From the NCBI GenBank assembly GCA_018066125.1, contig JAGHSA010000028.1:1-44287 (forward strand): DNA of 44,287 nucleotides, given 5' to 3'. Position numbers and translations under genes: made by a program. Every line of letters begins with the position of its first letter. Position 1 is the first letter of the stretch. Source of the DNA: Candidatus Cryptobacteroides onthequi (GTDB taxonomy: Bacteria > Bacteroidota > Bacteroidia > Bacteroidales > UBA932). Under the pieces are notes generated by a model. That model saw only the letters and a list, made by a program, of their open reading frames with translations. It made no database searches and was not told the origin of the DNA. Below, piece after piece: positions 7,330-25,344 of the stretch.

Positions 7330-7746
7330 TCAGAAGTTTGATATCTGAATGCTGTCCGGTATTGAAGAGATTCTTTTGTAAATCGACTCTTCCGATCCGG
7401 ATGTGAGAGTGAGCATGCCGTCGGTTACCTCGACAGTGTAGGCCGCTGCCCACGGAGTTCCGTCGGTGTAATTGCCGGACAGTCTGTTGCCAGTCAGTGT
7501 CCAGCTTCCGTCATATCGTACGTAGGAACTGTTTTCGTCGAGTCTCTGAAAGATGACAAACTTGCCGTCCCCGACAATGTCCAGATAGACCTGAGGCGTC
7601 TGTCCGTATTGCCCGCTGACGCTGACAAGTTCCCATGCCCCCGGAAGATCATTACGGTAATCCTTCTCCTTTTCACATGCGCAGAAGACGATGGCAGAAA
7701 TGACAGCTGCCATCAGGTACCTGAGAATATTGCTGAACTTCATCAT
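7330..7746 (-). CDS. small lipocalin-like lipoprotein
   Basis: 138 residues from the ATG at 7746 (MMKFSNILRYLMAAVISAIVFCAC). The start overlaps the TGA of the upstream protease gene as ATGA, and a GGAGG lies a few bases before. A lipoprotein signal ends at FCAC-EKEKD. The mature part, with 'LPGAWELVSVSG', 'YVRYDGSWTLTGNRLSGNY' and 'YTVEVTDGMLTLTSG', is the short beta-barrel pattern of Bacteroidetes lipocalin-like proteins. No catalytic motif. It is the last gene of a four-gene operon of exported lipoproteins (15584 down to 7330). Function unknown; small-ligand binding or inhibition of the neighbouring protease are possibilities only. Confidence 0.75.
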   Translation of the reverse strand: MMKFSNILRYLMAAVISAIVFCACEKEKDYRNDLPGAWELVSVSGQYGQTPQVYLDIVGDGKFVIFQRLDENSSYVRYDGSWTLTGNRLSGNYTDGTPWAAAYTVEVTDGMLTLTSGSEESIYKRISSIPDSIQISNF

Positions 7747-9638
7747 AACCATCCTCCATTGTTGCTGGCGTTCTCTCTGGAGACAATGGATATTGTCCTT
7801 TTGAAGAGTTTTCCGCCCATATCCGTATCTGTTCCTTCCGCTGCACCTCCGGCAACTGCTTCCACTGTGATTCTGGCCGATCCCATCTTGCTGCAATTTA
7901 TGTGCAGAATGCCCTGAGATACGGCAGGAGCCTCTTTGAGGCCCAAAGCTTCGCTGTCTCTGCTGCTGATGCTTACTTCCTTGATGGCAATCTTTGAGGC
8001 ATCTTCTCCGAGAAGACGTCTGAGGTCTATGCTTGCGTCAGTGCCTGTCTTTACTGTCACGAAAGGTACTCCCTCTACATTCATGAGCATCTTCCATGCA
8101 TCGATAACTCCGGTGCCCATGCCGCCTTTCCTCGAGGCGAGATCAAAGCTTGAAGTCGGCCCCATCTTGCTGCCGGAAAGTCTGTCTTCCAGCGGGTTCA
8201 CGGCTGTGAGTATCATGGCCTCGAACTCGTCTCTTGTGAAATGTCTTCCAAGCTGCTTTGCATAAGAGAGACCGAGCGCCGCGATTCCTGATACTACCGG
8301 AGTTGCCTGAGATGTGCCGTGCATGAAACCGTAGTCGTTGCCCTTGAGTTCGCTCGGGAGGGTCGAAAGCATGGTGAGGGTAAACGTGTTGTCTCCGCCC
8401 GGCGCCGCAATGTTTACTCCCAGACCATAGTTCGAGTACCATGCTGGGAGGTTGTCCTGCGAGATGGCAGACACACAGATGTAATCCCTGTATGCACCGG
8501 GATACTCTGCAAAGTTGTTATGACTGTTTCCTGCGGAAATGATGACGATGTTGCCGTCCACCGCACTGTTGTTGGCGTTTTCCGGTGCCCTGAAATAGTC
8601 GAATGCCGCTTTCACGGCCGAAAGGCTTTCGCTGAATGCCCTGTCGGAATAGTATTTGCCCAGTCCGAAAGAACACTGAAGCACACTCGCTCCGTTGTCG
8701 GCTGCATATTTGATTGCCTTTGCCACGGCTGCGTTGTCGTGGCTGCTGCCGCTGAAGATCTGGCATGACATGATCCTCACGCCGTCGCCCTTCCCGGATC
8801 CTCCGGCAACGCTGCTGATTCCGATGCCGTTGTTGTTCACGGCGGCTACAAGACCGGCCACGTGTGTGCCATGGCCGTTGTCACCCCCCTTATTCCAGGA
8901 GATGGGTCCGTCATCAATGAAATTGTAACCATGGATGTCATCGACATATCCGTTCCTGTCGTCATCAATGCCGTTGCCGGGAATCTCTCCCGTATTCGTC
9001 CACATGTTTGCCTCCAGGTCGGGGTGAGTGTACTTGACACCCTCGTCGACCACGGCCACAATGATTGACGGGTCGCCTGCGCACAGACTCCATGCATCCT
9101 TGATGTTCACGTCACATCCTGCGACGCAGGTCTGCCCGAATGTGGACTTGTCTCCGTTGTTGAAAAGGAACCACTGGCTTTTGAACAGCGGATCATTCAT
9201 GGAGACAGGCTCGGCAGCAGACTTTGTCATCGGTGCGATGTCGCAGACAGTCATGTCGTCGCTCTCCGAAGGATCGGTCAGCGCGGCACAGAACTCTATG
9301 CTCCGTACAGCCTCGCTCTTCGAGAGTCTTCCTGCCACCTCTCTGGCCTCCATTCCTTCCGGGATGGTGACCACAAACCATCTGTCCAGCCCGTATCTGT
9401 GCTCTATGGATTCCTTGCCTGGAGTAGAAGGGAACAGCCTTTCATATTCAAAACCGTCCGCGGCTGAGCTTATGTCATCCGCCTGGACAAGAATCCTGGA
9501 GTTGTCCGCATTTTCTGGGCTGCCGATTACCGATGCCGCAAGTGGGGTGTCCTCTATAAGGGAAGTTCTCCCGTCGCATCCTGAAAGGAGCAACGGAAGA
9601 ACTGCCATTGAAAGTATAAACAGTCTGTTTTTCAGCAT
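7743..9638 (-). CDS. S8 subtilisin-family serine peptidase, lipoprotein
   Basis: 631 residues with a lipoprotein signal (LSMAVLPLLLSGC-DG). Residues 45-125 form a propeptide-like region ('DRWFVVTIPEGMEAREVAGRL') resembling the fervidolysin-type N-terminal prodomain. The catalytic triad is intact: Asp198 in 'VAVVDEGVKYTHPDL', His256 in 'NGHGTHVAG', Ser443 in 'MHGTSQATPVVSG', with oxyanion Asn371 in 'IISAGNS'. A small beta-rich C-terminal domain follows (about 500-631). It should be an active endopeptidase on the cell surface or in the periplasm. It lies 5 nt downstream of the LRR lipoprotein gene and overlaps the next gene by 4 nt, tying it to the SusCD locus across the divergent promoter region. 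Confidence 0.93.
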   Translation of the reverse strand: MLKNRLFILSMAVLPLLLSGCDGRTSLIEDTPLAASVIGSPENADNSRILVQADDISSAADGFEYERLFPSTPGKESIEHRYGLDRWFVVTIPEGMEAREVAGRLSKSEAVRSIEFCAALTDPSESDDMTVCDIAPMTKSAAEPVSMNDPLFKSQWFLFNNGDKSTFGQTCVAGCDVNIKDAWSLCAGDPSIIVAVVDEGVKYTHPDLEANMWTNTGEIPGNGIDDDRNGYVDDIHGYNFIDDGPISWNKGGDNGHGTHVAGLVAAVNNNGIGISSVAGGSGKGDGVRIMSCQIFSGSSHDNAAVAKAIKYAADNGASVLQCSFGLGKYYSDRAFSESLSAVKAAFDYFRAPENANNSAVDGNIVIISAGNSHNNFAEYPGAYRDYICVSAISQDNLPAWYSNYGLGVNIAAPGGDNTFTLTMLSTLPSELKGNDYGFMHGTSQATPVVSGIAALGLSYAKQLGRHFTRDEFEAMILTAVNPLEDRLSGSKMGPTSSFDLASRKGGMGTGVIDAWKMLMNVEGVPFVTVKTGTDASIDLRRLLGEDASKIAIKEVSISSRDSEALGLKEAPAVSQGILHINCSKMGSARITVEAVAGGAAEGTDTDMGGKLFKRTISIVSRENASNNGGWL

Positions 9639-9643
9639 GAAAA

Positions 9644-12600
9644 CTATTCCTCGTCGTTACGTGAACCGCTCATGTTGATAGCGAAGATGAGGGCGCGGCC
9701 GCCGCTGACCTTGAAGAAGATCTCCTCACCTTCCACGGTAGAGTTGTCGCTCTTGTACTGACCGGAGAGGTTGTACCAGTGGTAGTTGGTATTGCCATCC
9801 TGGATGAAGCTCTTGCCGTCCTCAGAGATGGTGTTGATTACACCTACGGTAAGAGGGTTCTCGTCCTTTGTAACGTAGCTTGGTCCATAGTTTGAAGAGT
9901 CGGTGTCCTTGGTGAGAACTGGCTTTCCTGAGCTTCTCTCGAGTGTGATGGTCACATTCTCGGAATCGGTGACTGCAAAGAACTTGATCACCTTTCTGCC
10001 TGACTTCACCTTGATGGATGCCTGACCTCCGTCGTTTACGAGGAAGCCCTCAGAAGCCATGGTGTAGTTGATGGCGAAGTTCACTTTCTCAGCGTTTGTG
10101 CCTGCGGTGAGCTCAGTGATGTAGTTCCACTCGTTGGTCTTCATCGAGTAGGTAGGGTTGCTGAAATTCTGGACCATGATCTCGCCAGAAGCGCCTTCTA
10201 CAACACCGTCAGCAAGAGAGTTGCCTGAGCCTACGTTTACGGCTGCGAGCTGCGAACCTGTAGCTATGATCTTCTTGATGGTACCGTTCTTTGCCGCATT
10301 GGTGATGATGACAGTCTTGATGCCTGTATTCGAGATGTCGAGAGTCTCAAGCTTTGAGAGTGAACCGAGGTTGAGCTCTCCGCTGATGCCGGTACCTGCA
10401 AGGTTGAGATACTTGACTGCGGTAAGAGAAGATGTTCCTGAGAGAGATGTTGCACCTGTGTTGCTCATATCAAGGCTCTCGAGGTTGGAGAGGATGTATG
10501 GAGAGAATGAGAGCTGCTTGTTGTCAGACACATTGATGACCTTCAGGCTGCTTGGGAGTGACTGATAGTCGAGTGTGCCGGCAAGAGCATTGTTCTTGAG
10601 GTTGAGCTCTACAAGGCTTGTGTTCTTCTTGAGGTTGATCTTGGAGATGGCGTTGTTGCTGAGGTCAAGGACCTTGAGGGTCTTGATTGCAGAACCGTCA
10701 AACTCGGTGAGCTTGTTGTTTGAAAGATTGAGGGTCTCGATAGGGAAGGCCTCGAGTCCGGCGATGCTGCTGAGACCGAAGTATGAAAGGTCGAGTTCCT
10801 TGACAGCTGCAAGCTCTGTCTCTGAGATCTCTCCATTATTGTCTGCGTCGAAATTCTTGAGGACGAGCTTCTTGATATATTCATCCTCGATGAGTGAAGC
10901 ATAGTCTGAAACAGGAACCTCGTTTGGATCGTCAACAAACACGACCTTGACGTAGATGTAATTAAATGTGTCCCAGTCGAAGTACGATGTAGGAATGTCG
11001 AACTTGGTGTTATCGACGCCCTTTGCGTAACGTACCTCAAGGAGGCTTGAGCAGCTGTAAGCTGATGCCTTTTCAAGATTCTTTGCAGTAGAGAAGTCGA
11101 GAAGCTCGACTGACTTGTTGTACTGAGAGTTGAAAGAGACAAGCTTAGGAGAGTGTGAGAGGTCGATGGTCTTGAGCACTGTGTAGTTGCCAGAGAAAGT
11201 GGTGAGGTTCACGAGGTGCGAGAAGTCCATCTCCTTGATCTTTGCATTGTCGATCGAGAGGTACTCGAGCCTGTCATTCTTTGAGATGTCAAGGCTTGTG
11301 AGGTTCTCAGAACCGATGCTGAGAGTCTTGAGCTCTGGGCATGAGCTGAAATCAGCCGAAGCAATCTTTGAAGAATAGACTGAAATGGTATCAACCTTTG
11401 GCATCGCTGCGGCATTCACGCTTGTGAGTGCGGTCGCATAGCAGATGAAAGAGTTGAGTGAAGGGAGTGAGGTGTACTCGATCTCTGCAAGATTTGAGCA
11501 GAGAGGCATGCTGAGCTTCACGAGAGCCTTGAGCTCGCCGAGAGTTGCCTTCTTGAGGCTCTTAGCGGTGACGTGGATGTACGTGAGGTTCCTGTTTGCA
11601 GAAAGGTCGATGGTTTCGAATGTCGACTTGCCTGCACCGTATGAAGGGCCTGAGAACTGGAATGATTCGAGATTGTAGAATGCCTCGACGCCTGCGAATG
11701 AAGAGATTGCGTAGTCCTCGTCTTTGATGTTGATTTCCTTGACCTCTGCAGCCTCTGCAGCTGAGATGGCACCGTCATTGTCTGTGTCAAAGTTAGCGAG
11801 GATGTATGCCTTGAAGTTGTCGCACTCGAATGCAGGAGCGGCAAAGCTTGTCTCGCTCTCCTGAGCGATGGTGATGTGCTGTACTGCATAGCCGTTGGCA
11901 TCAATGAGATTGACAGTACCGATTCTCTTTGCTGGAGTGTTGTTTGCATCGACGTTTACGGTGAAGGTCTCTGTGCGTGTGGCGCCGGCCTTGGTCTCCA
12001 CGATGCTGATCCATGAAGAAGATGAAGGATCCACCTCTGCTGTGAACTCAACGTTTGTGGTGACAGAAACGGTCACCTCACCACCTGCAGGAGCGACAGT
12101 CTCTGCAGATGCCACATACTCGAGGATACCCTTTGTGAATGAGATGGTCTTGAGGTCTGTCTTGCCCTTGCCGTCAGTAGCGAATACGAGGACCTTTCCC
12201 TTATCTGATGCGTCAGAAGCAGGGACGCTGACCTTGATCACACCCTTTGAAGCGCTTTCAGCGACAGCCTCTGCAGACCAGTTGCCTGATGCGAAGGCGT
12301 CGACGACGGTGTTGTCGTCAGCTCCGTTGACTGTGTATGCAATCTCGGTTGCTCCACCTGCCACGATCTCGTAGGTCTTGGTGTTGTCGATAACGACTGC
12401 AAATGCGACCTCGCGTGGAAGGATGAGTGTGCTGCCGTCGGTGAAGATGAATACGACACCCTCGGATGTCTCCTTCACGCCTGCGAAGATTGCGTTGCAT
12501 GCGCTTCCTCCGGTCTGTGCGGATCCAAGATCTGTCCATGTAGTTCCATTGTCACTGGAAACTTCCCATCTGCCGTTGTTGACACGTACGACAGGAGCGA

Positions 12601-13081
12601 CTCCGCTGGCTGACACCTTGTTGCCGGATGCATCGAGAAGAGCTTTTCCATTGACAGTCCAGTAATATGTGTTTCCTTCGAGGACTACACCGATTTCAGG
12701 GGTGATTCCGTCCTTACCGTCCTTACCGTCAGCTCCGTTTGTACCATTTGTACCATTTGTTCCGTTTGTTCCGTTGATGCCGTCTTTTCCATTGTAGATG
12801 GTGATGGCAGGGCTCTTGGTGAAATGAATGGTGTAGCCGATGACCTGTCCTTCGGCGTTGGTGACATTCTCCACACCTGTCACATAGTCGTTCTGCTGAA
12901 GAGCATTGACGATGGTACGGAGACCTGAGATCTCAGAATTGATGCCATCTACCTTTTCCTTAAGACCCTTGATTTCAGTCTCAAGATTGCCGACACGGTT
13001 GATGATGTCTGTGTCGTCGTAGGAACAGCCCACGATTGCCAGGACTGATGCTGCGATTGCGCTGATAACCTTCTTGTTCAT
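9644..13081 (-). CDS. surface lipoprotein with coiled coil, collagen-like, BACON, EF-hand and LRR segments
   Basis: 1145 residues. In order: lipoprotein signal (ASVLAIVGC-SYDD); a coiled coil at about 25-65 ('VGNLETEIKGLKEKVDG'); a PL29-type N-terminal domain (DUF4988) with a Gly-X-Y stretch (GTNGTNGTNGTNGADG); a BACON domain ('TVAPAGGEVTVSVTTN...WISI'); then two modules that each open with an EF-hand-like loop ('DTDNDGAISAAE', 'DADNNGEISETE') and continue with leucine-rich repeats of about 20-24 residues ('LKVLDLSNNAISKINLKKN'). The C-terminus is a beta-rich domain. No lyase or hydrolase motif is seen. Parts such as BACON and LRR usually bind ligands. It is second in the operon of exported lipoproteins beside SusCD; a substrate-binding surface role is inferred. 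Confidence 0.85.
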   Translation of the reverse strand: MNKKVISAIAASVLAIVGCSYDDTDIINRVGNLETEIKGLKEKVDGINSEISGLRTIVNALQQNDYVTGVENVTNAEGQVIGYTIHFTKSPAITIYNGKDGINGTNGTNGTNGTNGADGKDGKDGITPEIGVVLEGNTYYWTVNGKALLDASGNKVSASGVAPVVRVNNGRWEVSSDNGTTWTDLGSAQTGGSACNAIFAGVKETSEGVVFIFTDGSTLILPREVAFAVVIDNTKTYEIVAGGATEIAYTVNGADDNTVVDAFASGNWSAEAVAESASKGVIKVSVPASDASDKGKVLVFATDGKGKTDLKTISFTKGILEYVASAETVAPAGGEVTVSVTTNVEFTAEVDPSSSSWISIVETKAGATRTETFTVNVDANNTPAKRIGTVNLIDANGYAVQHITIAQESETSFAAPAFECDNFKAYILANFDTDNDGAISAAEAAEVKEINIKDEDYAISSFAGVEAFYNLESFQFSGPSYGAGKSTFETIDLSANRNLTYIHVTAKSLKKATLGELKALVKLSMPLCSNLAEIEYTSLPSLNSFICYATALTSVNAAAMPKVDTISVYSSKIASADFSSCPELKTLSIGSENLTSLDISKNDRLEYLSIDNAKIKEMDFSHLVNLTTFSGNYTVLKTIDLSHSPKLVSFNSQYNKSVELLDFSTAKNLEKASAYSCSSLLEVRYAKGVDNTKFDIPTSYFDWDTFNYIYVKVVFVDDPNEVPVSDYASLIEDEYIKKLVLKNFDADNNGEISETELAAVKELDLSYFGLSSIAGLEAFPIETLNLSNNKLTEFDGSAIKTLKVLDLSNNAISKINLKKNTSLVELNLKNNALAGTLDYQSLPSSLKVINVSDNKQLSFSPYILSNLESLDMSNTGATSLSGTSSLTAVKYLNLAGTGISGELNLGSLSKLETLDISNTGIKTVIITNAAKNGTIKKIIATGSQLAAVNVGSGNSLADGVVEGASGEIMVQNFSNPTYSMKTNEWNYITELTAGTNAEKVNFAINYTMASEGFLVNDGGQASIKVKSGRKVIKFFAVTDSENVTITLERSSGKPVLTKDTDSSNYGPSYVTKDENPLTVGVINTISEDGKSFIQDGNTNYHWYNLSGQYKSDNSTVEGEEIFFKVSGGRALIFAINMSGSRNDEE
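12737..12772 (-). repeat. four 9-bp tandem repeats encoding Gly-Thr-Asn
   Basis: Four tandem units (GTTTGTACC, ATTTGTACC, ATTTGTTCC, GTTTGTTCC on the plus strand) encode the Gly-Thr-Asn triplets of the collagen-like stretch in the LRR lipoprotein. Units differ by one or two bases. Changes in copy number would stay in frame. Confidence 0.85.
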
Positions 13082-13109
13082 TGTTTAGTCAGTATTATGA
13101 TTGTTTGTC

Positions 13110-15584
13110 TTATTTCTTGATAGAGACGCCTTTGGCTTTGACATCGGAGACTTTCATGATGACCTCCTGGACGCCAGGTGCAGACTGAACGTTCCAGAAC
13201 TGATAGGCCTCTGTATAACCTACTTCGCGGTTGCCTGTCACCGATGCCTTCGGCTCAGGAATAGGGATGAACAGGTCGTAGTGGAGCGGGCCGAAGCGGC
13301 CTTCCGCATCTTCTGCGTATGCAGTGATACTCCAAGGCATGTATGACATGGTCTCTCCTTCTTCGGTCTTGAATATGTAGCCGCTTCCCGGCTTTGCATT
13401 GGAGTCGGCACCATACCACCAAGGCCTGAGAAGTCCACCCTTCTTGTCGACAATGTTGTCACCTTCTACTTCCGGCATGATGATGAGGTTTACGAGGTGG
13501 TCGATTCCTCCGGAGCTTGCAAAATTCTCCTTTGGAGGCCAGATGCCCCAGTACCAGTGAGCCGGGTCGCCTGTGGTCTGGATCATCACTCTCATGATGC
13601 AATCGCCGTCGTCGTATCTGCCCCACATGTTGGCGTCAAGGGCTTTCAGGTCTTCGGAGCGGAAGATCTCATATGTGTATGAAAGGTCGCAGTTCGCCTT
13701 TCCGAATGGAATCTCAGGAGAATGGAACTTATACTCATACATCTTGGTGGTGTTGCTTCCCTCATATCCGAACACGAGGAGAGAGTAGTCGGTGTCTGAA
13801 GTCCAGTTAGATGTCCATTCCCTCTCACCTTTATATACATAGTAACTGATCTCGTCCTCATAGATGTCGCGGATCTGATCCATGACTTCTCTCTCCATGA
13901 GAGAGCCGTCTTCGTGGCGGTAGGTTGCGAGGTCCTCTGTCGTGATGAGGAAAGGCATGTAGTAGTCTGTAGGGTTGGATGGCGTGATCTTGAAGGTCGC
14001 ATATTTCCAACTGTTGGTCACAAGTTCCACTGAGAACGTGTTGTCAGACTGGGCCGGTGTGCCTGTCTTGGCATCAACCCGCTTGATCGCAGTGGTCAGT
14101 TCGCCCTTTTCGTTCACACCGAATACATAGATGCGGTAGTTGGACTCCGGATCGAATGTCCAGCCGAGGTCCTGTCTTCCCCAGATGGTGCAAGTGCCGC
14201 TGTGGAGGTCCGGATGATTTGCCCATGTGATTCCTGGACCATACGATCCGTTCGCCAGTGAATTGTTCTCGGAATTGAGAATCCTCTGGTACATCTGGAA
14301 ATCGTTCATGCCCTTGCAGCGGGCCTCGCTGATGAAGGCGGTGTAGTACTTTGTTGCAGGGTTGCTAGGGGTCACCTTGATCTGGATGTCCATTGCCTTG
14401 ACCTCAGTGACTTGAACGTCGAATGTGCAGTTGTCCGTTATCTCATTCTCAAGAGTCGTGAATGTGAATACCTCCATGGCTTCACTGGTGGCATTTCCCT
14501 CGCGGTCCATTCCCCAGGCCACGACATGGTAGAGGGTGCCCATCGAGAGGTCCTCCTCCACTTTCTCTGACACCTTGCCCTTGTAGAGGAAGTCATCCAT
14601 GGTGTAGTCGCTCATCGCCACTGCCTTCACGATGTCATCGATGAACTGAGACTGGATCTCCTGGAGTGTCACCTGCTTGAATGTCGCGTCGTCGGCCCAT
14701 GTCCAGTAGTACGTAGCGCTCAGGTCGTTAGGCGTGATGTTGATTGTAGCGGTGTTCTGGCCGATGTTGGTGGCATTGCCATCGAATGAGAGGCTTGCCT
14801 CGACTACTGAAGAAGTGCTGAAAAGGCGCATGGCAACAGGCGTGGTGCGCTTTCCTTCGATATCCATGCCATAGACGATGGCGTAATATTCTGTGCCGAG
14901 ACTGAGCTTCGAGAACTTCATCTCGGTTGCTTCGCCGCTGGTAGTCACCTTATACATGTTTGTCATTCCCTTGAGATGGTCAGAGAACGACATTCCTGTG
15001 TGGACCGTTTCTTTGATATATGCGAGGTCGCTCTGATAGAGCGCATCACCCCATCCCATCTGACCCGGTTTTGATGTGTCCAGAGCCAGGTATTTGTCCA
15101 CAGCGGATTTTGAGAAAACCTCAAAGAAGTAGTTGTTCTTGTATCCTCTTGGCGCGAATTTGACTACTGCGCTTGTGGATTTGATGTCTTTGATCTCGAT
15201 GACAAAGTCCTCGAATGCAAAAGCAACCTGAGAGACGTTGATGGTCGCGATCTCCTTCGAATTGTAGCTGACTGTGATCGATCCTGAGCGTTCGTCGCCG
15301 AGGTTGTCTGCCACATCAAATGTGATGCCTTCGTTGGTGGCCTTGAGGTTGAGGATCCACTCAGTGGATGTGGTGGCCTTCAGAACCTGACCGGCAACAG
15401 GGTTGGTGACGGTTACCGGGATGGAGTGGCTTGCAGAGTTTCCATCCACAAATACTGAGGTCCTTACCTCAACTGTCGGGTCCTTAGGCTCTTCAGGGAT
15501 TGGCTTGTCAACTTGTTTGCACGCGTTGATGGCGAGAAATGCCATGGCAAGCAGTGCGAATTTGAAATGGAATCTTGAATTCAT
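13110..15584 (-). CDS. surface lipoprotein with BACON and five tandem beta modules
   Basis: 824 residues from the ATG at 15584 (MNSRFHFKFALLAMAFLAINAC). The lipoprotein signal dictates this start; an upstream in-frame ATG at 15692 would put it inside the divergent promoter. A BACON domain (about 35-120, 'WILNLKATNEGITFDVADN') is followed by five modules of 110-190 residues. Modules 1-4 share a core: an opening strand such as 'ATINITPNDLSATYYW' or 'IKVTPSNPATKYYTAF', a helical insert, then 'GTEYYAIVYGMDIEGK' or 'NYRIYVFGVNEKGEL'. They look like divergent Fn3/Ig-type domains. No catalytic residues are evident. First gene of the minus operon, facing SusC. Likely an outer-membrane ligand-binding protein of the locus; the ligand is unknown. 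Confidence 0.8.
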   Translation of the reverse strand: MNSRFHFKFALLAMAFLAINACKQVDKPIPEEPKDPTVEVRTSVFVDGNSASHSIPVTVTNPVAGQVLKATTSTEWILNLKATNEGITFDVADNLGDERSGSITVSYNSKEIATINVSQVAFAFEDFVIEIKDIKSTSAVVKFAPRGYKNNYFFEVFSKSAVDKYLALDTSKPGQMGWGDALYQSDLAYIKETVHTGMSFSDHLKGMTNMYKVTTSGEATEMKFSKLSLGTEYYAIVYGMDIEGKRTTPVAMRLFSTSSVVEASLSFDGNATNIGQNTATINITPNDLSATYYWTWADDATFKQVTLQEIQSQFIDDIVKAVAMSDYTMDDFLYKGKVSEKVEEDLSMGTLYHVVAWGMDREGNATSEAMEVFTFTTLENEITDNCTFDVQVTEVKAMDIQIKVTPSNPATKYYTAFISEARCKGMNDFQMYQRILNSENNSLANGSYGPGITWANHPDLHSGTCTIWGRQDLGWTFDPESNYRIYVFGVNEKGELTTAIKRVDAKTGTPAQSDNTFSVELVTNSWKYATFKITPSNPTDYYMPFLITTEDLATYRHEDGSLMEREVMDQIRDIYEDEISYYVYKGEREWTSNWTSDTDYSLLVFGYEGSNTTKMYEYKFHSPEIPFGKANCDLSYTYEIFRSEDLKALDANMWGRYDDGDCIMRVMIQTTGDPAHWYWGIWPPKENFASSGGIDHLVNLIIMPEVEGDNIVDKKGGLLRPWWYGADSNAKPGSGYIFKTEEGETMSYMPWSITAYAEDAEGRFGPLHYDLFIPIPEPKASVTGNREVGYTEAYQFWNVQSAPGVQEVIMKVSDVKAKGVSIKK

Positions 15585-15637
15585 ATGTTCTTTTGACGCA
15601 GGAAAAATGAATAAATCTCGCAAAGATTGTAAAAAAG

Positions 15638-15670
15638 TTTGAATAATTATGAAAAACGGGGCTATATTTG
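15638..15670 (+). promoter_or_regulatory. promoter of the SusCD operon (TTTG - 21 bp - TATATTTG)
   Basis: TTTG at 15638-15641 and TATATTTG at 15663-15670, separated by 21 bp, match the Bacteroidetes sigma-ABfr promoter (-33 TTTG, -7 TAnnTTTG). Transcription would begin near 15677, about 45 nt before the SusC start. On the other strand only a one-mismatch -7 (AATCTTTG, 15621-15628) is visible for the divergent operon. Confidence 0.75.
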
Positions 15671-15721
15671 CGCGTTTTTGTCGCAAAAGCACTCCCGAAT
15701 CGGGGTTAATCGGTAAATGAG

Positions 15722-18700
15722 ATGTTGAATATGATAAAGAGATTGATGTTATTGATGATTGCCATTGCTCTTCCGCTGACGGCAGCGGCTCAGGGTAAGA
15801 CAGTCAAGGGAACCGTTCAGTACAAAAGTGACGGAGAACCGGTGATCGGCGCTTATGTCACTGTCGATGGTACTGACCTCAAGACCATTACGGATTTTGA
15901 CGGCCATTTCATTTTTGAAGGCGTCCCATCTTCAGCAAAGACGGTTTCGGCCTCCTACCTGGGATTGAAGGATCTCAGACTCCCGGTTGCCGCAGAGATT
16001 ACATTCGAGATGGAAAATGATTCCGAGTTGCTGGAAAGCGCCGTCGTGACGGGTATGCAGGTGATGGACAGACGCCTGTTTACGGGCAGTGCGACCAAAG
16101 TCGGGGGAGGCGATGCCAAGATCGACGGTGTGGCTGACATCAGCCGTTCACTTGAAGGAAGGGCGGCAGGAGTGTCCGTTCAGAATGTTTCCGGAACTTT
16201 CGGAACTGCACCAAAGATCAGAATCCGTGGTGCGACTTCTATCTACGGCAGTTCGAAGCCTCTCTGGGTGGTCGACGGCGTCATCATGTCTGATGTGGTC
16301 GACGTGAGTGCAGACGAACTTTCATCCGGTGATGCCAATACCCTGATCTCATCTGCCATTGCAGGACTCAATTCTGATGATATCGAGAGTTTTGATATCC
16401 TCAAGGATGGCTCGGCAACTTCAATTTACGGTGCAAGGGCGATGGCGGGAGTGATCGTGGTGACGACCAAAAAGGGTGTTGCCGGTCAGAACCACATCAA
16501 CTATACCGGTGAGTTCTCGTCAAGGCTGAAGCCTGCGTACAGGACCTTCAATATCATGAACTCCCAGGATCAGATGGATATCTATCAGGAACTTGAGCAG
16601 AAAGGATATCTCAATTACGCGACATTCTCAAACGTTCCTGACAGTGGAATCTATGGCAAGATGTATGAACTCATCAGCAAGTACGATCCTGCCACAAAGA
16701 AGTTTGCCCTTGAAAACACTCCTGAAGCCAGGGCTGAGTACCTCAGGGCTGCAGAATACAGGAATACTGACTGGTTCGACATGCTCTTCTCCACAGCCGT
16801 GCAGCAGAATCACTCGGTCAGCATCTCAGGAGGCAGCGAGAAGGCGACATATTATGCGTCGATCTCTGCAATGAACGACCCGGGATGGACCAAGCAGAGT
16901 TCGGTGGCCCGCTATACTGCAAACATGAACGCAAGCATCAAGGTGTTTGACAATCTGTCTTTCAATATGATCAGCAATGCTGCGTTCCGAAATCAGAAGG
17001 CTCCGGGAACTCTCAGTTCCGATATCGATGCCGTCTCCGGAGAAGTCAAGAGAGACTTTGACATCAACCCATATTCCTATGCGCTCAATACATCCAGGGC
17101 TCTCGATCCGGATGAGTACTATACCAGGAATTATGCCAAGTTCAATATCTTCAACGAACTGGACAACAATTATGTAGGCCTCAGTGTCAAGGATTTCAGA
17201 ATCCAGGGTGAGCTCAAGTGGAAGCCTCTCTCAAAAGTGGACATATCTGTCCTCGGCGCTGTGAAGAACTCATCTACTTCACAGGAGCATTTCATCCTGG
17301 ACGACTCCAACCAGGCACTGGCATACAGGGCTATGGGCAACTCTGTGATCAGGGAGAACAACACATTCCTTTATTCAGATCCTGATGATCCGAATGCTCT
17401 TCCGATCTCCATCATGCCTAACGGTGGTATCTATGACCGCGCGGACAACTCTCTCCTGGGGTACGATTTCCGTTCGTCAGTGACCTACAGTGATACATTC
17501 GCCCGCAATCATATCGTCAACCTCTTCGGCGGCATGGAGCTCAACAACATTGACCGTCACGCCAGCACATTCAGGGGCTGGGGAATGCAATACAGCATGG
17601 GCGAGATCGCCAACTACGCATATCAGGCATTCAAGAAGGGTTCTGAACAGAATACTGACTATTTCACCCTCGGAAATACATATGACCGAAGCGTGGCATT
17701 CTTTGCAAATGGAACCTACTCGTACGCCGCCAGGTACATTGTGAATGGAACAATACGATATGAGGGCACCAACAAGCTCGGAAAGACAAGGTCAGCCCGC
17801 TGGCTCCCTACATGGAACCTTTCTTTCTCGTGGAATGCCAGCGAGGAGGACTGGTTCGAGCCTCTCCGCGATGTCGTTTCTCACCTGTCCCTCAAGAGCT
17901 CATATTCTCTTACGGCTGACCGTGGACCATCAAACGTGACCAACTCAAGCGTTGTGATCTCAAGTTCTACCCCTTGGAGACCATTCACTTCAATCAGGGA
18001 GAGTCAGCTCTATATCTACGATCTGGCGAACAACGATCTCACATACGAGAAGAAGCGGGAGCTGAATCTCGGTCTCGAGGCTGGATTCCTCATGAACAGA
18101 ATCAACTTCGCAGCCGACTGGTATACCAGAAACAACTACGATCTCATTGGCGTCATAAACACTCAGGGTGTAGGAGGCCAGGTGCAGAAGTTCGGCAATA
18201 TCGCTTCCATGAAATCCAGTGGACTTGAGCTCAGTCTCACGACCAACAACATTCAGGGAAGTGATTTCAAATGGACAACCAACTTCATCTACTCGCACAG
18301 CAAGAATGTTGTCACGGACCTCAAGACGACAGTGCGGGCAATCACTCTTGTGGCCGGAAACGGATTCGCTCAGCAGGGATATCCTGTACGAAGCATATTC
18401 TCTATCCCATTCATGGGGCTTAATGACGAGGGACTTCCGACATTCAAGGATCAGGACGGCAATGTATCTACCACCGGCGTATATTTCCAGACTTCCGATC
18501 CTGAGAAGCTCAAGTTCCTTGAGTACAGTGGAAGTGCCGATCCTACCGATGTGGGCTCGCTCGGAAACATCTTTACCTTCAGGCATTTCAAGCTGAATGC
18601 TTTCATCACATACTCATTCGGCAATGTCATAAGACTCGATCCTGTCTTCAGGGCTGCGTATGATGACCTTACTTCGATGCCGAAGGAGTTCCGCAACAGA

Positions 18701-19057
18701 TGGATGGTTCCTGGCGATGAGGCAATCACAGACGTGCCTGTAATTGCCAGCCGCATCCAGAACAGAAACAATACCAATCTGTCTGTTGCGTACAATTCGT
18801 ACAATTATTCTACTGCACGTATCGCAAGAGGCGATTTTGTGAGAATGAAGGAGATTTCTCTCAGTTATGATGTCCCTAAGGAAGTGGTCGCGAAGCTCAA
18901 GCTCAGCTCTATGGGCTTCAAGCTGCAGGGCACAAACCTTTTCCTGCTCTATTCCGACAAGAAACTCAATGGGCAGGATCCTGAGTTCTTCAATACCGGA
19001 GGCGTGGCGGTGCCTATGCCGAAACAGTTTACATTCACTGTAAGAATTGGAATTTAG
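15722..19057 (+). CDS. SusC/RagA-family TonB-dependent outer-membrane transporter
   Basis: 1111 residues. The signal peptide ends near residue 23 (LPLTAAAQG). Next comes a carboxypeptidase-regulatory-like beta sandwich (about 25-100, 'GEPVIGAYVTVDGTDLKTITDFDG'), then the plug with the SusC signature 'SLEGRAAGVSVQN...IRIRGATSIYGSSKPLWVVDGV' and 'DIESFDILKDGSATSIYGARAM', then a long beta-barrel ending in an aromatic-rich strand (PKQFTFTVRIGI). It imports ligands over the outer membrane using TonB energy, capped by its SusD partner encoded 13 nt downstream. First gene of the plus operon with SusD, a metallopeptidase and DUF4302. The ligand is probably peptide or glycopeptide, judged only from neighbours. 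Confidence 0.95.
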   Translation: MLNMIKRLMLLMIAIALPLTAAAQGKTVKGTVQYKSDGEPVIGAYVTVDGTDLKTITDFDGHFIFEGVPSSAKTVSASYLGLKDLRLPVAAEITFEMENDSELLESAVVTGMQVMDRRLFTGSATKVGGGDAKIDGVADISRSLEGRAAGVSVQNVSGTFGTAPKIRIRGATSIYGSSKPLWVVDGVIMSDVVDVSADELSSGDANTLISSAIAGLNSDDIESFDILKDGSATSIYGARAMAGVIVVTTKKGVAGQNHINYTGEFSSRLKPAYRTFNIMNSQDQMDIYQELEQKGYLNYATFSNVPDSGIYGKMYELISKYDPATKKFALENTPEARAEYLRAAEYRNTDWFDMLFSTAVQQNHSVSISGGSEKATYYASISAMNDPGWTKQSSVARYTANMNASIKVFDNLSFNMISNAAFRNQKAPGTLSSDIDAVSGEVKRDFDINPYSYALNTSRALDPDEYYTRNYAKFNIFNELDNNYVGLSVKDFRIQGELKWKPLSKVDISVLGAVKNSSTSQEHFILDDSNQALAYRAMGNSVIRENNTFLYSDPDDPNALPISIMPNGGIYDRADNSLLGYDFRSSVTYSDTFARNHIVNLFGGMELNNIDRHASTFRGWGMQYSMGEIANYAYQAFKKGSEQNTDYFTLGNTYDRSVAFFANGTYSYAARYIVNGTIRYEGTNKLGKTRSARWLPTWNLSFSWNASEEDWFEPLRDVVSHLSLKSSYSLTADRGPSNVTNSSVVISSSTPWRPFTSIRESQLYIYDLANNDLTYEKKRELNLGLEAGFLMNRINFAADWYTRNNYDLIGVINTQGVGGQVQKFGNIASMKSSGLELSLTTNNIQGSDFKWTTNFIYSHSKNVVTDLKTTVRAITLVAGNGFAQQGYPVRSIFSIPFMGLNDEGLPTFKDQDGNVSTTGVYFQTSDPEKLKFLEYSGSADPTDVGSLGNIFTFRHFKLNAFITYSFGNVIRLDPVFRAAYDDLTSMPKEFRNRWMVPGDEAITDVPVIASRIQNRNNTNLSVAYNSYNYSTARIARGDFVRMKEISLSYDVPKEVVAKLKLSSMGFKLQGTNLFLLYSDKKLNGQDPEFFNTGGVAVPMPKQFTFTVRIGI

Positions 19058-19070
19058 CGGAGGAACATTT

Positions 19071-20642
19071 ATGAGAAGAATGATTAAATATGTGATGACA
19101 GCCGTCGCCGTTCTGGTGGCAGCGTCATGTGACAGTTTCCTGAACATACAGCCTGATAACAGGACAGAAATCGATACGGAAGATAAGGTGACGACACTCC
19201 TCACTTCTGCATACCCGGACATCTGCTTCATCATGGTGACCGAAATGATATCGGACAATGTGGATGATTTCCGTATCTCCTACGCGGAAACAGACCGTTT
19301 CTCTGATGAGCTTTTCGCATGGAAGGATGTCACGGAGGATGACAATGAGAGCCCTGAAAATATATGGCAGAGCACATATTCTGCAATCGCGGCTGCAAAT
19401 GAGGCCTTGAAGGCAATCGAGGCCATGGGGTGCAATACCACCACACTTCAGCATGCGAAGGCAGAGGCACTTCTGTGCCGTGCATACGGGCATTTCCTTC
19501 TTGCCAACATCTTCTGCATGGCGTACGACAGCAAGACTGCTTCCAAGAATCTGGGCGTTCCGTACACCACAGTGCCGGAAGTGACACTGAACCCTCAGTA
19601 TGACAGGGGCACGCTCGATCATGTATATGAGATGATCGACGAGGACATCCAGGAGGCACTCCAGCTTCAGGGAGATTCATATTTCCAGGTGCCTAAATAC
19701 CATTTCAACAAAAAGGCGGCCTATGCCTTCGCAGCCAGATTCTATCTCTACTATGAGAAGTGGGACCTTGCGGAAAAATATGCATCCCTGTGTCTCGGCA
19801 ATCAGCCGGAGTCTCTTCTCCGTGACTGGGATGTGCTTGGGAATCTGCCATCTACCAGCTACAGCCAGGTAGTCAACCAGTTCATCAATGTCAATGAGCC
19901 GGCAAACTTCCTTCTCTGTACGGCATACTCTGCTGTCGGCCTCGCTTTCGGACCTTATGCTTATTATACTGCATACTCTCATGGCGCATATCTTTCTGAA
20001 ACGGAGGATATTCTTGCCGGCAATCTCTGGGGAAGCGGATTCCAGGCCTACAGATTTGAGCCGAGGTCATATATCAACGCACTTGACAGAGTCATTTTCT
20101 GGAAGATCCCGTATCTCTTTGAATATACAGACCCTGTAGCCGGAATCGGCTACTTCAGGACTGTGTACCCGGTATTCTGGGCGGACGAAACCCTCCTGAG
20201 CAGAGCGGAAGCGCGTGTGATGACGGAAGACTATGACGGAGCTGTCCAGGATATCAACAGATGGATCCACAACTTCACGACAAGTACCAAGGATTACACC
20301 CTCAATGAGATCGTGAGATTCTACAATTCGGCGGACTATCATGTCTGGAACAAGCCTACCATCAAGAAGCATCTCCACCCGGGATTCGATATCGGACCGG
20401 AGGGCTCGGTGAAAGAGAGTCTCCTCCAATGCATCATCGGTCTGCGCCGAATAGAGACACAGGGCCAGGGAATGCGCTGGTTTGACATCAAGCGCTATGG
20501 CATCGAGATAGAAAGAAGGGTGATGGATGCCTCTGGCGAGCCTCAGGCGATTTCGGACAGGCTCCCGGTCGATGACCTGCGCCGTGCCGTTCAGATCCCT
20601 CTGAAGGTCACAGATGCCAATCTTCAGGCCAATCCACGTTAA
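19071..20642 (+). CDS. SusD/RagB-family outer-membrane lipoprotein
   Basis: 523 residues from the ATG at 19071 (MRRMIKYVMTAVAVLVAASC), which has a GGAGGAA ribosome site 7 nt before it; an earlier in-frame ATG at 19047 overlaps the SusC stop and lacks a signal. The mature start 'CDSFLNIQPDN' is the classic SusD N-terminus. The TPR-like helices that clamp the SusC barrel are visible ('EALLCRAYGHFLLANIFC', 'KKAAYAFAARFYLYYEKWDLAEKYA'), and the C-terminal 'LLQCIIGLRRIETQGQGMRWFDIKRYG' is the conserved family tail. It serves as the surface lid and primary ligand binder for the SusC porter. Confidence 0.95.
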   Translation: MRRMIKYVMTAVAVLVAASCDSFLNIQPDNRTEIDTEDKVTTLLTSAYPDICFIMVTEMISDNVDDFRISYAETDRFSDELFAWKDVTEDDNESPENIWQSTYSAIAAANEALKAIEAMGCNTTTLQHAKAEALLCRAYGHFLLANIFCMAYDSKTASKNLGVPYTTVPEVTLNPQYDRGTLDHVYEMIDEDIQEALQLQGDSYFQVPKYHFNKKAAYAFAARFYLYYEKWDLAEKYASLCLGNQPESLLRDWDVLGNLPSTSYSQVVNQFINVNEPANFLLCTAYSAVGLAFGPYAYYTAYSHGAYLSETEDILAGNLWGSGFQAYRFEPRSYINALDRVIFWKIPYLFEYTDPVAGIGYFRTVYPVFWADETLLSRAEARVMTEDYDGAVQDINRWIHNFTTSTKDYTLNEIVRFYNSADYHVWNKPTIKKHLHPGFDIGPEGSVKESLLQCIIGLRRIETQGQGMRWFDIKRYGIEIERRVMDASGEPQAISDRLPVDDLRRAVQIPLKVTDANLQANPR

Positions 20643-20662
20643 TCCTATTTGAATCGAGTATC

Positions 20663-21562
20663 ATGAACTATAAATCAATATTAGCAGCAATTGTTCTTTC
20701 CGCAAGCTTCTCGTGCGTGACCTCATGCTCTGAGGAGGACCTGAGCTCGGAAAGTGTTATCGTTGTGAAACAGACAAACGATACATCCTTTGATCTGTGG
20801 CTGAAGGAGAACTTCCTGAAACCATACAATATCCAGTTCAAGTATCGTTTCGAGCAGAACGAGGCCGACATGAATTATTATACCGTTCCTGCGAAACTCA
20901 GAGATGCGATAAAGATGGCACATATAGTCAAGCATCTATGCGTCGAGACTTACAACGAAGTGGCCGGCGAGGATTTCACCAAGAGCAACTTCCCGAAGAT
21001 GTTCTTTCTGATAGGCGAGTGGGAGTACAACAACAATGGTACTTTCATTCTCGGTACTGCAGAGGGCGGTAAGAAAATCATGCTCTCGGGACTGAACTAT
21101 CTCACTCAGCATCTCTGGAATGCCGATGAGCTGAACGACTACTACATAAGGACAATCCATCATGAGTTTACGCATATCCTGAATCAGACTGTTCCTTACC
21201 AGACTGACTTCAAGCTTGTGACCGACAAGGGATATGTAGTGGACAACTGGAGCAGCGAGCCGTATGAGTCCGAATATCTCCAGAATGGATTCGTGTCGGC
21301 GTATGCCCAGAAGACTCATGAGGAGGATTTTGCCGAGACGCTGTCCCTTTATGTGACCAATACTCCGGAATGGTGGGATGCGCTGCTCGCGGTACCTGGA
21401 TGCAATGCTGCCGCCATCCGTGCAAAGCTGGACTATGTAAGAGACTATATGGAAGATTCGTGGGGCGTGGATATCGATCTCCTGCGCAGCGTGATCATCA
21501 GACGCCAGTCGGAGATTATCGACGGAAAAGTCAGTCTTGATGACATAACTCTCAACAACTAG
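20663..21562 (+). CDS. Mx1-type zinc metallopeptidase lipoprotein
   Basis: 299 residues with a lipoprotein signal (ASFSCVTSC-SEEDL). The zinc motif is HExxH ('HHEFTHILNQT'), and the downstream 'HEEDFAETLSLYVTNTPEWW' supplies the probable third ligand Glu. The layout matches the 'putative zinc-binding metallopeptidase' family (Peptidase_Mx1) often found directly behind SusD genes in Bacteroidetes. It lies 20 nt after susD and 4 nt before the DUF4302 gene, in one operon. An active surface peptidase is likely; its substrate in this family is not established, as far as I know. Confidence 0.88.
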   Translation: MNYKSILAAIVLSASFSCVTSCSEEDLSSESVIVVKQTNDTSFDLWLKENFLKPYNIQFKYRFEQNEADMNYYTVPAKLRDAIKMAHIVKHLCVETYNEVAGEDFTKSNFPKMFFLIGEWEYNNNGTFILGTAEGGKKIMLSGLNYLTQHLWNADELNDYYIRTIHHEFTHILNQTVPYQTDFKLVTDKGYVVDNWSSEPYESEYLQNGFVSAYAQKTHEEDFAETLSLYVTNTPEWWDALLAVPGCNAAAIRAKLDYVRDYMEDSWGVDIDLLRSVIIRRQSEIIDGKVSLDDITLNN

Positions 21563-21566
21563 CCTT

Positions 21567-22874
21567 ATGAAAACAAATCTCAGAACAACTCTCGGCATTG
21601 CCGCAGCAATATTCTCTCTGACTTTTGTCTCATGTCAGAATGAGAGTCTGGACTATTTCGGACAGACCGCGTCTTCAAGAATCCAGGAATCTCTCGAGAG
21701 CGCACGCAAGGTGCTGCTCGAGGCGGAAAACGGATGGGCCATGGAATACTTTACTGCAAGTGGAGGGTACAATTATGCCATCAGGTTTATCGGAACCGAC
21801 ACGCAGGGCAATCCGATCGATTCCCTGGTTGCTGCCAGTGAACTCTCGTATCGCGAGCCTGTGGGCAGCTATTTCAGACTGACTACAGATGATGGCCCTA
21901 TCCTCAGTTTTGATACCTATAATGAAGTCCTTCACTATTTCGCTACTCCTGATTCGGACAATTATCAGGCGTATGGAGGTGATTTCGAGTTCATTATCCT
22001 GAGTGCCACTGAAGATGAAGTGGTGCTCAAGGGAAAGAGGACTGGGTATATCTCAAGGATGACTCCTATCAGAAGCGGCGACATCCTGTCTGTTTCTCAG
22101 GAGGCCGGTCTTAATTCTGACAAGTTTGTCGTGCTGTCTGCTTCCGGCTTTGTCAATGGGGAGCGTGCACTGGTCGAGTTTGACCTTGCAATGCGCAATA
22201 TCATCATTTCGGGATATCAGGATGACGGACAGGTCGATAAGGCCAACCAGATCATCGAACCGTTCATCATCACGGGAGACGGCGTCAAGTTTGTGGATGA
22301 GATCGAGGCTTTCGGTGCCAGATTCAACAGCATCACTGTCAATCAGGCTCGCACGAAACTTCTCATATCCGGTGTGGAGTCAAGTCTCAATATCGATCCG
22401 GTGCCGAGCGGATATACTCTCTTCAAGGATTTTCCGGGCAACTATATATTCACTTATCAGACTGGCGAAGGAAAGACCGTGTCCAGAAATGTGACGCTCT
22501 CGATTTCTGACCAGATGAACAAGTATATCATGCTCAGCGGATTCTCGAACGATTATGGGATTGAGTTCTCGTACAGTTATACTGACGGATGTCTCCATTT
22601 CTACCCGCAATATGTCGGCGAGCTCTCATCTACGGACCTTGTGGCGGTGTTTACGAGTGACGGCAACGTGGTTTCAAATGCTGCAGGCATCGACCTGATA
22701 TCTGACGGCAATGGCGGATACAGGTTCAAGGACAATCCAAACGACAGGTTCTATGCCAGCTATATGGTCCTCTTCAGGGATTATGAGGCTGAAGACGGAA
22801 TGTGGTACTATGACCAGTTCTTCGGTTGGAGCCCAAGTCTCTTTATCCCCAAGACACTCACAAGAGTCAGGTAA
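21567..22874 (+). CDS. DUF4302-type lipoprotein
   Basis: 435 residues with a lipoprotein signal (AAIFSLTFVSC-QNES). The N-terminal pattern 'SSRIQESLESARKVLLEAENGWAMEYFTASGGYNYAIRF' is what I recognise as DUF4302, a family that travels with SusCD and Mx1 peptidases. The body is beta-rich with paired aromatic strands ('PVGSYFRLTTDDGPILSFDTYNEVLHYF'), and no catalytic motif is seen. Last gene of the SusC operon, ending 8 nt from the convergent lipoprotein gene. Function unknown; by position probably an accessory ligand-binding protein of the SusCD complex. Confidence 0.82.
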   Translation: MKTNLRTTLGIAAAIFSLTFVSCQNESLDYFGQTASSRIQESLESARKVLLEAENGWAMEYFTASGGYNYAIRFIGTDTQGNPIDSLVAASELSYREPVGSYFRLTTDDGPILSFDTYNEVLHYFATPDSDNYQAYGGDFEFIILSATEDEVVLKGKRTGYISRMTPIRSGDILSVSQEAGLNSDKFVVLSASGFVNGERALVEFDLAMRNIIISGYQDDGQVDKANQIIEPFIITGDGVKFVDEIEAFGARFNSITVNQARTKLLISGVESSLNIDPVPSGYTLFKDFPGNYIFTYQTGEGKTVSRNVTLSISDQMNKYIMLSGFSNDYGIEFSYSYTDGCLHFYPQYVGELSSTDLVAVFTSDGNVVSNAAGIDLISDGNGGYRFKDNPNDRFYASYMVLFRDYEAEDGMWYYDQFFGWSPSLFIPKTLTRVR

Positions 22875-22882: not shown

Positions 22883-23932
22883 TTATCGGGGCTGATATTT
22901 TATTCCGGAGACTGCGGTCAGGCGGTTGACGTCTATTTCGAGGGTGTTGGAAGGGGAGAGAGCCACCGGTCCGTCGCTTGTGTTCCTTGCTGTCACGGAT
23001 ACGGTGATCTTCCTGATGTCACCGAGCGCTCCGTCTGTTTTGGCGTGGAGCTTGACTTCTGTGGTGGAACATGCCAGGATTTCGTTGCTGAATGAAAGAG
23101 ACGTCGTGCCGTTCTCAGATACGGCGCTTGCGCTCAGGTCGAGCGGGAATGTGCTTCTGACACTTGTGATGAGGTCAAACTCATTCAGGCTTACGCTTAT
23201 GGCGCTCATGTCCGCGCCCATTTCCTCCAGATCGAGGGTGGTGTCGAAGCTGATCTCTGAACCGGCTTCAAATGCCATCTTGATGCTGGATCTTGCGATA
23301 AGATTATAGATCACGCTTCCTGTTCCGGTCATTTCTCCTCCCTTGGTCACAGGTCTTGCGGTGAACGACAGGTCTTCGATGAGGATTGCATCCGGAATCG
23401 GGTACAAGATGTCCGAGAGTGCCTTCCCTCCGACTTTGACTGTGAAGCATTCTGCGTCGGCAGGCAGCTCGATCTCGAAAGCTGCCGCCAGTCCATTTGC
23501 CTTGGCGTTGCCTCTGAGGGTGACGGTGCTGCCGACAGGGTTGTTGACCTGGAACTCGATCTCAGGCTCATGCAGCCTGAATCCGGTCTTTGACTGTCTC
23601 AGGAAATCCGGAGCCGATACCGGGACATAGATCTTCCTGTCGCTGTAGACAGTGCCGTATGCCAGTTCGTCTGCAGAGACAGTCACTTCGCCGCCTGCAG
23701 TCTCTCCCGTCTGTATGTACGTGCCTTCTTCGTCGGTGTCTGTGCCGCTGAAACCGAGAAGGTCATCTGAGCTGACTTCGCCGAGACTCTTTCCTACTGG
23801 GATCGAGACGCCGGGAGCTACAGTCATTTCCAGATTGAGTTTTCTGAAGTCGTAAACCTCATTGATGCATGAGCTCATGAAGGCGGCCGCAGCAAGGAGT
23901 GGAAGTGAGGCTGAAAGGATATTGGTTTTCAT
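22883..23932 (-). CDS. hypothetical exported lipoprotein
   Basis: 349 residues from the ATG at 23932 (MKTNILSASLPLLAAAAFMSSC), selected for its lipoprotein signal; a longer in-frame form starting at 24040 has no signal and crosses the promoter. The mature protein is Ser/Thr/Val-rich and nearly all beta in character ('ISFDTTLDLEEMGADMSAISVSLNEFDL'), with no Cys after the lipobox and no recognisable catalytic motif. I do not recognise the family. It converges on the DUF4302 gene with only 8 nt between stops and no terminator, so transcripts may collide. Its own -7 element is at 23954-23961. A link to the SusCD locus is possible but unproven. Confidence 0.75.
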   Translation of the reverse strand: MKTNILSASLPLLAAAAFMSSCINEVYDFRKLNLEMTVAPGVSIPVGKSLGEVSSDDLLGFSGTDTDEEGTYIQTGETAGGEVTVSADELAYGTVYSDRKIYVPVSAPDFLRQSKTGFRLHEPEIEFQVNNPVGSTVTLRGNAKANGLAAAFEIELPADAECFTVKVGGKALSDILYPIPDAILIEDLSFTARPVTKGGEMTGTGSVIYNLIARSSIKMAFEAGSEISFDTTLDLEEMGADMSAISVSLNEFDLITSVRSTFPLDLSASAVSENGTTSLSFSNEILACSTTEVKLHAKTDGALGDIRKITVSVTARNTSDGPVALSPSNTLEIDVNRLTAVSGIKYQPR

Positions 23933-23953
23933 GATGATGTCAGTTGTCTCGGG

Positions 23954-23961
23954 CAAAACTA
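23954..23961 (-). promoter_or_regulatory. Bacteroidetes -7 element (TAGTTTTG)
   Basis: On the minus strand TAGTTTTG matches TAnnTTTG, 22 nt before the lipoprotein start at 23932. A TTTG at 23985-23988 has a 23-bp spacing, slightly longer than the usual 19-21. Confidence 0.5.
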
Positions 23962-24093
23962 ATATAGGATGATGACAACTGTCACAAAGACCTTTTCCAT
24001 ATATGACAAAGCGATTCAAACTGAGCTCACTGTCATTCAAAAATCGACAAAAGGCACCGAACGAAGGGGGTGGGAGGGTGGATACAACGAAAG

Positions 24094-25280: not shown

Positions 25281-25336
25281 CTTTTTACAAATACTGTAAT
25301 TCTGTTATCTTTTGATGCAAAGTACATGCTGAAAGA

Positions 25337-25344
25337 CAAAGATA
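25337..25344 (-). promoter_or_regulatory. Bacteroidetes -7 element (TATCTTTG) for the guanylyltransferase gene
   Basis: TATCTTTG on the minus strand matches TAnnTTTG and lies 56 nt before the start at 25280. A TTG with about 22-bp spacing may act as -33. It is back to back with the plus-strand box at 25359-25366. Confidence 0.5.

Follow-up and report, generated by a model that had tools for sequence, protein, structure and literature searches.

Loci built round a SusC-type outer membrane transporter and its SusD-type lipoprotein partner (SusCD) are mostly read as carbohydrate systems. According to published reports, RagAB of Porphyromonas gingivalis and BT2263-64 are SusCD pairs for oligopeptides and TRV642_0198-0209 of Flavobacterium collinsii is a peptidase-rich SusCD locus with predicted oligopeptide uptake (PMC10132118), while BT4240-50, a mucin O-glycoprotein polysaccharide utilisation locus (PUL) with a surface M60-like peptidase, provides a model for mucin glycopeptides (PMC11992087). 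Among systems with a described function, the closest is the iron capture system (ICS) of Capnocytophaga canimorsus (icsA, icsC-icsH), for which serotransferrin is the iron source and every polypeptide is needed (Manfredi et al. 2015, as reported in PMC5429918); icsC, icsD and icsE have their matches in the Riemerella genes for SusC, RagB and a zinc metallohydrolase, whose expression rises when iron is depleted (log2 3.06 to 3.81; PMC5429918). Here we analysed a stretch of 44,287 nt, hereafter the window (contig JAGHSA010000028.1 of assembly GCA_018066125.1, Candidatus Cryptobacteroides onthequi), in which a SusCD locus with two peptidases is found at positions 7330-22874. Since peptide-importing SusCDs and peptidase-bearing PULs have already been published (PMC10132118, PMC11992087), the kind of locus is not new, and the window is best read as holding a rearranged variant of it. 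On balance, with a confidence barely above even, we regard the locus as a surface system for the utilisation of proteins or glycoproteins.

The locus consists of two divergent four-gene operons, back to back over a shared control region of 137 nt (15585-15721). The plus operon encodes, collinear on one strand, the SusC transporter (15722-19057), the SusD lipoprotein (19071-20642), a zinc metallopeptidase lipoprotein of the Mx1/TIGR04549 family (20663-21562) and a DUF4302 lipoprotein (21567-22874). The minus operon encodes, in order of transcription, a lipoprotein with a BACON-like domain and a chain of FN3-like modules (15584-13110; its gene is here labelled FIVE), an LRR lipoprotein (13081-9644), an S8 subtilase lipoprotein (9638-7743) and a lipocalin-like lipoprotein (7752-7330) whose gene overlaps the end of the S8 gene. 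The eight genes, recovered with open reading frames (ORFs), Pfam and TIGR models, have the place and order reported in a preliminary description of this DNA, which was also right on the 137 nt, lying between the FIVE ATG (ending at 15584) and the SusC ATG (starting at 15722), and on export signals in all products, seven of them lipoprotein-type. Indeed, when the signals were read by eye rather than with a predictor, seven of the eight products showed a signal of lipoprotein type with Cys at its end, whereas that of SusC is ordinary and has Gln after it.

Both peptidases have intact catalytic residues. In the S8 subtilase the triad and the oxyanion Asn (D198, H256, N371 and S443) are invariant in 9/9 aligned sequences, and in Mx1 the HExxH motif is represented by HEFTH at residues 167-171, with H167, E168 and H171 invariant in 13/13. 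No carbohydrate-active enzyme (CAZyme) was detected by Pfam among the eight genes. The CAZyme linked to SusCD by which a PUL is recognised is absent, the nearest glycosidases starting at 31326, and what is found instead is the make-up of a peptidase-bearing SusCD locus, with S8 and Mx1 beside SusCD, Cys-type signals and conserved catalytic residues.

The plus operon is a fixed SusC-SusD-Mx1-DUF4302 module, a grouping that had been named as known in the preliminary description and is confirmed by our counts. Mx1 loci were collected from 200 relatives (45 places in 35/200 genomes) and from a named genome collection (best 80 of 498 matches), giving 116 distinct loci, window excluded (all 44 others of the first survey together with those best 80). 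SusC and SusD lie upstream of Mx1 in 113/116, and DUF4302 lies downstream in 112/116, or 114/116 after Pfam adds two further places of genome G178; the two loci left without DUF4302 (L247 and L253) stop at a contig edge. A separate draw over the whole phylum took in 247 genomes, among them that of the window; Mx1 exceeded the cut-off in 13 of these and DUF4302 did so in the very same 13, directly after Mx1 and on the same strand at 16/16 DUF4302 places, peptidase and DUF4302 thus standing together at every one of them. All of the ten phylum-draw loci that were fetched have SusC and SusD before Mx1 and DUF4302 after it (nine by label, the tenth by Pfam). At four of these loci, which belong to other orders of the class, the nine genes scanned on the 3' side have housekeeping, mobile or biosynthetic roles or gave no match (among them SDR, LysR, UvrB, integrase and lantibiotic dehydratase), and one gene 3' of a locus from the same order has a BACON domain. 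Given that the genes 3' of those four loci are unrelated or without match, the smallest module comprises four genes, with the peptidase as its one recognisable enzyme. The lantibiotic dehydratase gene lies 3' of the Mx1 module of L279 (8068-10866).

In Bacteroidales the module commonly extends to a fifth gene, having a BACON domain in 104/112 of the Mx1 loci that possess a fifth gene. This five-gene form, with BACON directly after DUF4302, is not found in the window, where the following lipoprotein-like ORF (22883-24040) lies on the opposite strand, convergent with DUF4302, and matched nothing in Pfam or NCBIfam. Elsewhere, the window's genome has one more complete SusC-SusD-Mx1-DUF4302 operon (L065, contig G000:C20, 8908-17222), and this one continues with a BACON gene, as is usual.

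Coupling of this module to further surface-type proteins of the classes seen in the minus operon recurs in other genomes. Within the same-strand run of the 116 Mx1 loci, S8 is found in 20, LRR in 17, both in 14 and either in 23. One typical order is SusC-SusD-Mx1-DUF4302-BACON-LRR-S8 (E105, E107 and E108); in another, that of E083 and E113, the BACON gene is followed by S8, a gene of about 300 codons and LRR. In three S8 proteins of those runs the type IX sorting domain scored above cut-off in two and just below it in one, and the three genes 3' of them code for an outer-membrane barrel, a protein with a weak PorV match and one with no match. In L096, SusC-SusD-Mx1-DUF4302 is followed by an S8 lipoprotein and by a small gene resembling the lipocalin-like gene of the window (4e-14; no Pfam match). 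Elsewhere, the Mx1 run of L199 includes an M6 peptidase and that of L217 a PKD protein whose match to InhA stays below threshold. Moreover, one genome (G235; L182 and L268, contig G235:C13) carries on one strand the run S8-SusC-SusD-two unknowns-BACON/M64 peptidase-DUF4988-FIVE-LRR-Lipocalin_4, which is a different, second independent peptidase-armed SusCD locus holding genes of the minus cassette. What recurs is the type of coupling and not the exact operon pair. Recurrence of the same protein classes (S8, LRR, BACON, lipocalin-like, but also M6 and M64) beside SusCD-Mx1-DUF4302, or beside another SusCD, speaks for protein or glycoprotein utilisation.

As a side observation, in L214, from a record titled Prevotella, the Mx1 run continues at 13433-16555 with AhpC/TSA-like, DUF6029 and Omp28 genes, and gene lengths similar to those of this run are seen in L192, L195, L226 and L233. 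Speculatively, a thiol enzyme next to the peptidase, as in L214, could serve disulfide-rich proteins.

Several observations, reported from here on with the alternatives on which they bear, weigh against the proposed function. First of all, the linkage of the two exact operons was not recovered in the related loci examined. None of the 116 Mx1 loci contains FIVE. When 400 genomes of the genus were searched, strong FIVE orthologues (E below 1e-130) were retrieved in 17 further genomes, and neither Mx1 nor DUF4302 was found in the stretches fetched round them (0/17), with at least 1.3 kb 5' of FIVE visible in 15/17. The minus operon itself is partly preserved in these stretches: the LRR gene adjoins FIVE in 16/17 (the G318 stretch stops at its contig edge), S8 belongs to the locus in 13/17, either after LRR or on the other side of FIVE, and the lipocalin-like gene is found in 7/17. 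The exact eight-gene pairing is seen in the window only, so a joint action of the two operons would have to be argued by analogy with the equivalent couplings. In addition, the window comes from a draft genome in 75 contigs that is 85% complete, and a mis-join at the 137-nt gap is accordingly possible.

These data bear on the explanation that an importer operon and a free-standing surface protease unit are chance neighbours, back to back in the genome or joined by the assembly, that do not act together. Such an explanation, which we judge unlikely yet one to be reckoned with, would agree with a pairing seen once, as well as with the presence of both operons on separate contigs in G142 and G134. 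A SusC-labelled gene was found in G235 alone among the first stretches fetched round the 17 orthologues; in G402 and G297, once extended, a weakly similar SusC starts about 16 kb past S8 with other genes between. A stretch 5' of FIVE in the window also resembles, by eye, that of G402. On the other side, chance neighbourhood is opposed by the recurrence of equivalent couplings in 23/116 Mx1 loci and in G235, and by S8 places that cluster round Mx1 more than a rough estimate of chance predicts. With the window's genome excluded, distances of up to 10, 12.5, 15 and 20 kb from Mx1 take in 3, 4, 4 and 5 of the S8 places used, where 0.35, 0.44, 0.53 and 0.71 would be expected under a null that is rough since S8 genes generally sit near SusCD loci (P 5.7e-3 to 8.3e-4 over 10-20 kb; Poisson P 1.1e-3 at 12.5 kb, 4 vs 0.44 expected). 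The S8 lipoprotein family is common in the genus, and the 20 S8 loci that were fetched contain a small lipocalin-like gene in 19/20 and a SusC-labelled gene in 13/20.

A different arrangement was noticed in L175-L179 and L181, where FIVE-LRR pairs adjoin an S8 of another subfamily, divergently in 5/6. The S8 of L175, the one scanned, shows a sub-threshold type IX sorting domain and adjoins a weak outer-membrane-barrel match.

The second group of observations concerns glycans. SusC and SusD sequences reveal no ligand, and the apparent copy of the module in B. thetaiotaomicron, BT3958-BT3961, equated by gene order, includes BT3958/BT3959, described as a mucin O-glycan PUL that is induced by the core 1 disaccharide and responds also with human milk oligosaccharides and galactooligosaccharides (PMC5238430). 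This would suit a host-glycan system, in which small glycopeptides or oligosaccharides of mucin type enter through SusCD, with the sugar as both nutrient and inducer, and the peptidases only open the glycoprotein for glycosidases encoded elsewhere. The annotations of the two other genes fit the module order, BT3960 being a calpain-like protease enriched in outer membrane vesicles (PMC6222051) and BT3961 a DUF4302 protein (PMC10434189), although BT3960 is equated with Mx1 by its position. A glycosidase cluster exists in the window itself (31326-43647), but it lies over 8 kb from the locus, behind a capsule-type cluster, and 0/46 Mx1-locus neighbours, chosen by hand and scanned with Pfam, match a CAZyme family. 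Several large neighbours gave no Pfam match at all, so that the absence of CAZymes refers to known families. Taken together, we consider the host-glycan explanation rather unlikely.

The "no carbohydrate-active enzyme" of the preliminary description is accordingly correct for the eight genes and does not extend to the window. The glycosidase cluster, on both strands, includes a SASA esterase, a GLAA-B-type beta-helix enzyme, an unassigned 680-aa protein, WbsX, Melibiase and GH2; it looks aimed at alpha-galactosylated glycans, and no SusCD was noticed beside it. The capsule/exopolysaccharide-type region (24402-31294) encodes a nucleotidyl transferase and a Wzz/AAA_31 chain-length kinase according to Pfam, and reads by eye also as nucleotide-sugar epimerase, export lipoprotein and phosphatase. 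On the other side of the locus, an M28-family peptidase with a possible Cys-type signal (1036-2055) points away from it.

Iron is the third point, given that the ICS is reported to use transferrin for iron rather than for food. The SusC-SusD-Mx1-DUF4302 module might hold and open a metal-carrying host glycoprotein and import the metal, or a metal-bearing piece, in the manner of the C. canimorsus system. The iron response of the published counterparts is in conflict, since the Riemerella genes go up in iron depletion (PMC5429918) while BT3958-59 and BT3961 go down (PMC10434189). We hold capture of iron or another metal to be rather unlikely here. Protein utilisation and its alternatives overlap and are not exclusive: all of them, except chance neighbourhood, share a surface machine that would hold and cut host or dietary protein at the mouth of SusCD.

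The SusC protein has a plug domain (Pfam) and scores 575 bits against TIGR04056 (cut-off 368.25 bits); its similarity with RagA has an E of 1.9e-49, 8ypu/8ypt being nearer. The adjoining SusD matches SusD-like_3 (E 6.1e-37). Mx1 matches Peptidase_Mx1 (1.3e-80) and TIGR04549 with 330.8 bits (cut-off 75 bits), and has solved relatives in 9urd and 4l7a. The DUF4302 protein (5.6e-45), with an additional DUF4987, is predicted to form a chain of beta-barrel-like modules. On the minus strand, the S8 protein carries an N-terminal Peptidase_S8_N before its Peptidase_S8 domain (5.1e-43), and its closest solved relative is Deseasin MCP-01. The LRR lipoprotein comprises DUF4988 (2.1e-18), a collagen-like stretch, BACON and LRR, with EF-hand-like motifs (Pfam matches to BACON, LRR and EF-hand), and the last product matches Lipocalin_4 (E 3.6e-05, scanned with a longer upstream start). 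For FIVE, a surface-type lipoprotein, the BACON match in Pfam is under its cut-off (1.9e-04), and BACON is found at E <= 0.01 in 6/12 family members. In the structure model (pLDDT 82.6, pTM 0.48) a BACON-like sandwich at the N-terminus precedes a row of about five beta modules of FN3-like type, some of which have helices inserted, and Foldseek retrieved tandem FN3/Ig proteins, e.g., fibronectin III 7-10, with low whole-chain TM-scores. The term "five-module", used previously for this lipoprotein, is then about right, with the sandwich as an extra. Within the control region, TATATTTG at 15663-15670 of the plus strand fits what we take to be the -7 element of Bacteroidetes; the motif occurs 12 times in the whole window vs 9.5 expected, i.e., not above chance.

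Under the protein or glycoprotein utilisation that we favour, the substrate, a protein or glycoprotein, would be held on the cell surface by the LRR protein and the BACON/FN3 stalk, and the S8 subtilase would cleave it there endolytically. At the mouth of the transporter, Mx1, with DUF4302 as a fixed binding partner, may then trim or select the fragments, and the resulting peptides or glycopeptides would be imported by SusD/SusC at the expense of TonB energy. Thus, the function put forward in the preliminary description agrees with two intact peptidases, SusCD, the signals, a locus free of CAZymes and protein classes that recur. The check that it proposed, linkage of the two exact operons in related genomes, came out negative in the loci covered here, and the published counterparts, with mucin-glycan induction and transferrin iron, go partly against it. 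For the module, in the accessible literature on DUF4302, the metallohydrolase name and its family names, no functional account was found beyond the second-hand one of the Capnocytophaga ICS (PMC5429918).

More broadly, we propose, with a confidence just short of even, that SusC-SusD-Mx1-DUF4302 is an obligate four-part outer-membrane machine across Bacteroidota, in which the peptidase and a tandem beta-barrel receptor would be permanent SusCD subunits for folded or glycosylated proteins. Lineages would equip it at the surface with exchangeable front ends (S8+LRR+FN3 cassettes, BACON proteins or M6 peptidases) for differing purposes, from transferrin iron to peptides and mucin glycopeptides, much as polysaccharide loci exchange their CAZymes, and the window would show one front end plugged in divergently. 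An obligate module with swappable peptidase front ends would be the noteworthy part, the kind of locus itself being known. Whether gut Bacteroidales use the module for peptides or glycopeptides could be tested directly in B. thetaiotaomicron, where at least one apparent copy exists.

Compared with the described systems, the window shares with RagAB and BT2263-64 a SusCD with peptide cargo, which for the window is a prediction. It resembles TRV642_0198-0209 in having peptidases as the enzymes of a SusCD locus, but the families differ, being S9, S37, M24 and M43 in F. collinsii and S8 and Mx1 here (PMC10132118). With BT4240-50 it would have in common a surface endopeptidase, SusCD and a surface-binding protein; that locus, however, has glycosidases and an M60-like peptidase, whereas the window locus has S8 and Mx1 and no CAZyme (PMC11992087). 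In the ICS, icsC-icsD-icsE correspond to SusC, SusD and zinc metallohydrolase in the order of the window, the comparison covering these three genes, the described cargo being transferrin iron and the accessible portion of the report mentioning no S8/LRR/BACON-FN3 operon (PMC5429918). The first four genes of the SusC-SusD-Mx1-DUF4302-BACON operon of Bacteroidales, a form established by our counts, have the same order as in the window, which lacks the fifth and has its BACON-bearing gene in the divergent operon instead. Finally, the window Mx1 is a full member of TIGR04549/Peptidase_Mx1, the "substrate import-associated zinc metallohydrolase lipoprotein" found with SusC/SusD, and both SusC and SusD adjoin it; the plus operon shows no difference from loci of this type, to which the window adds a divergent operon.

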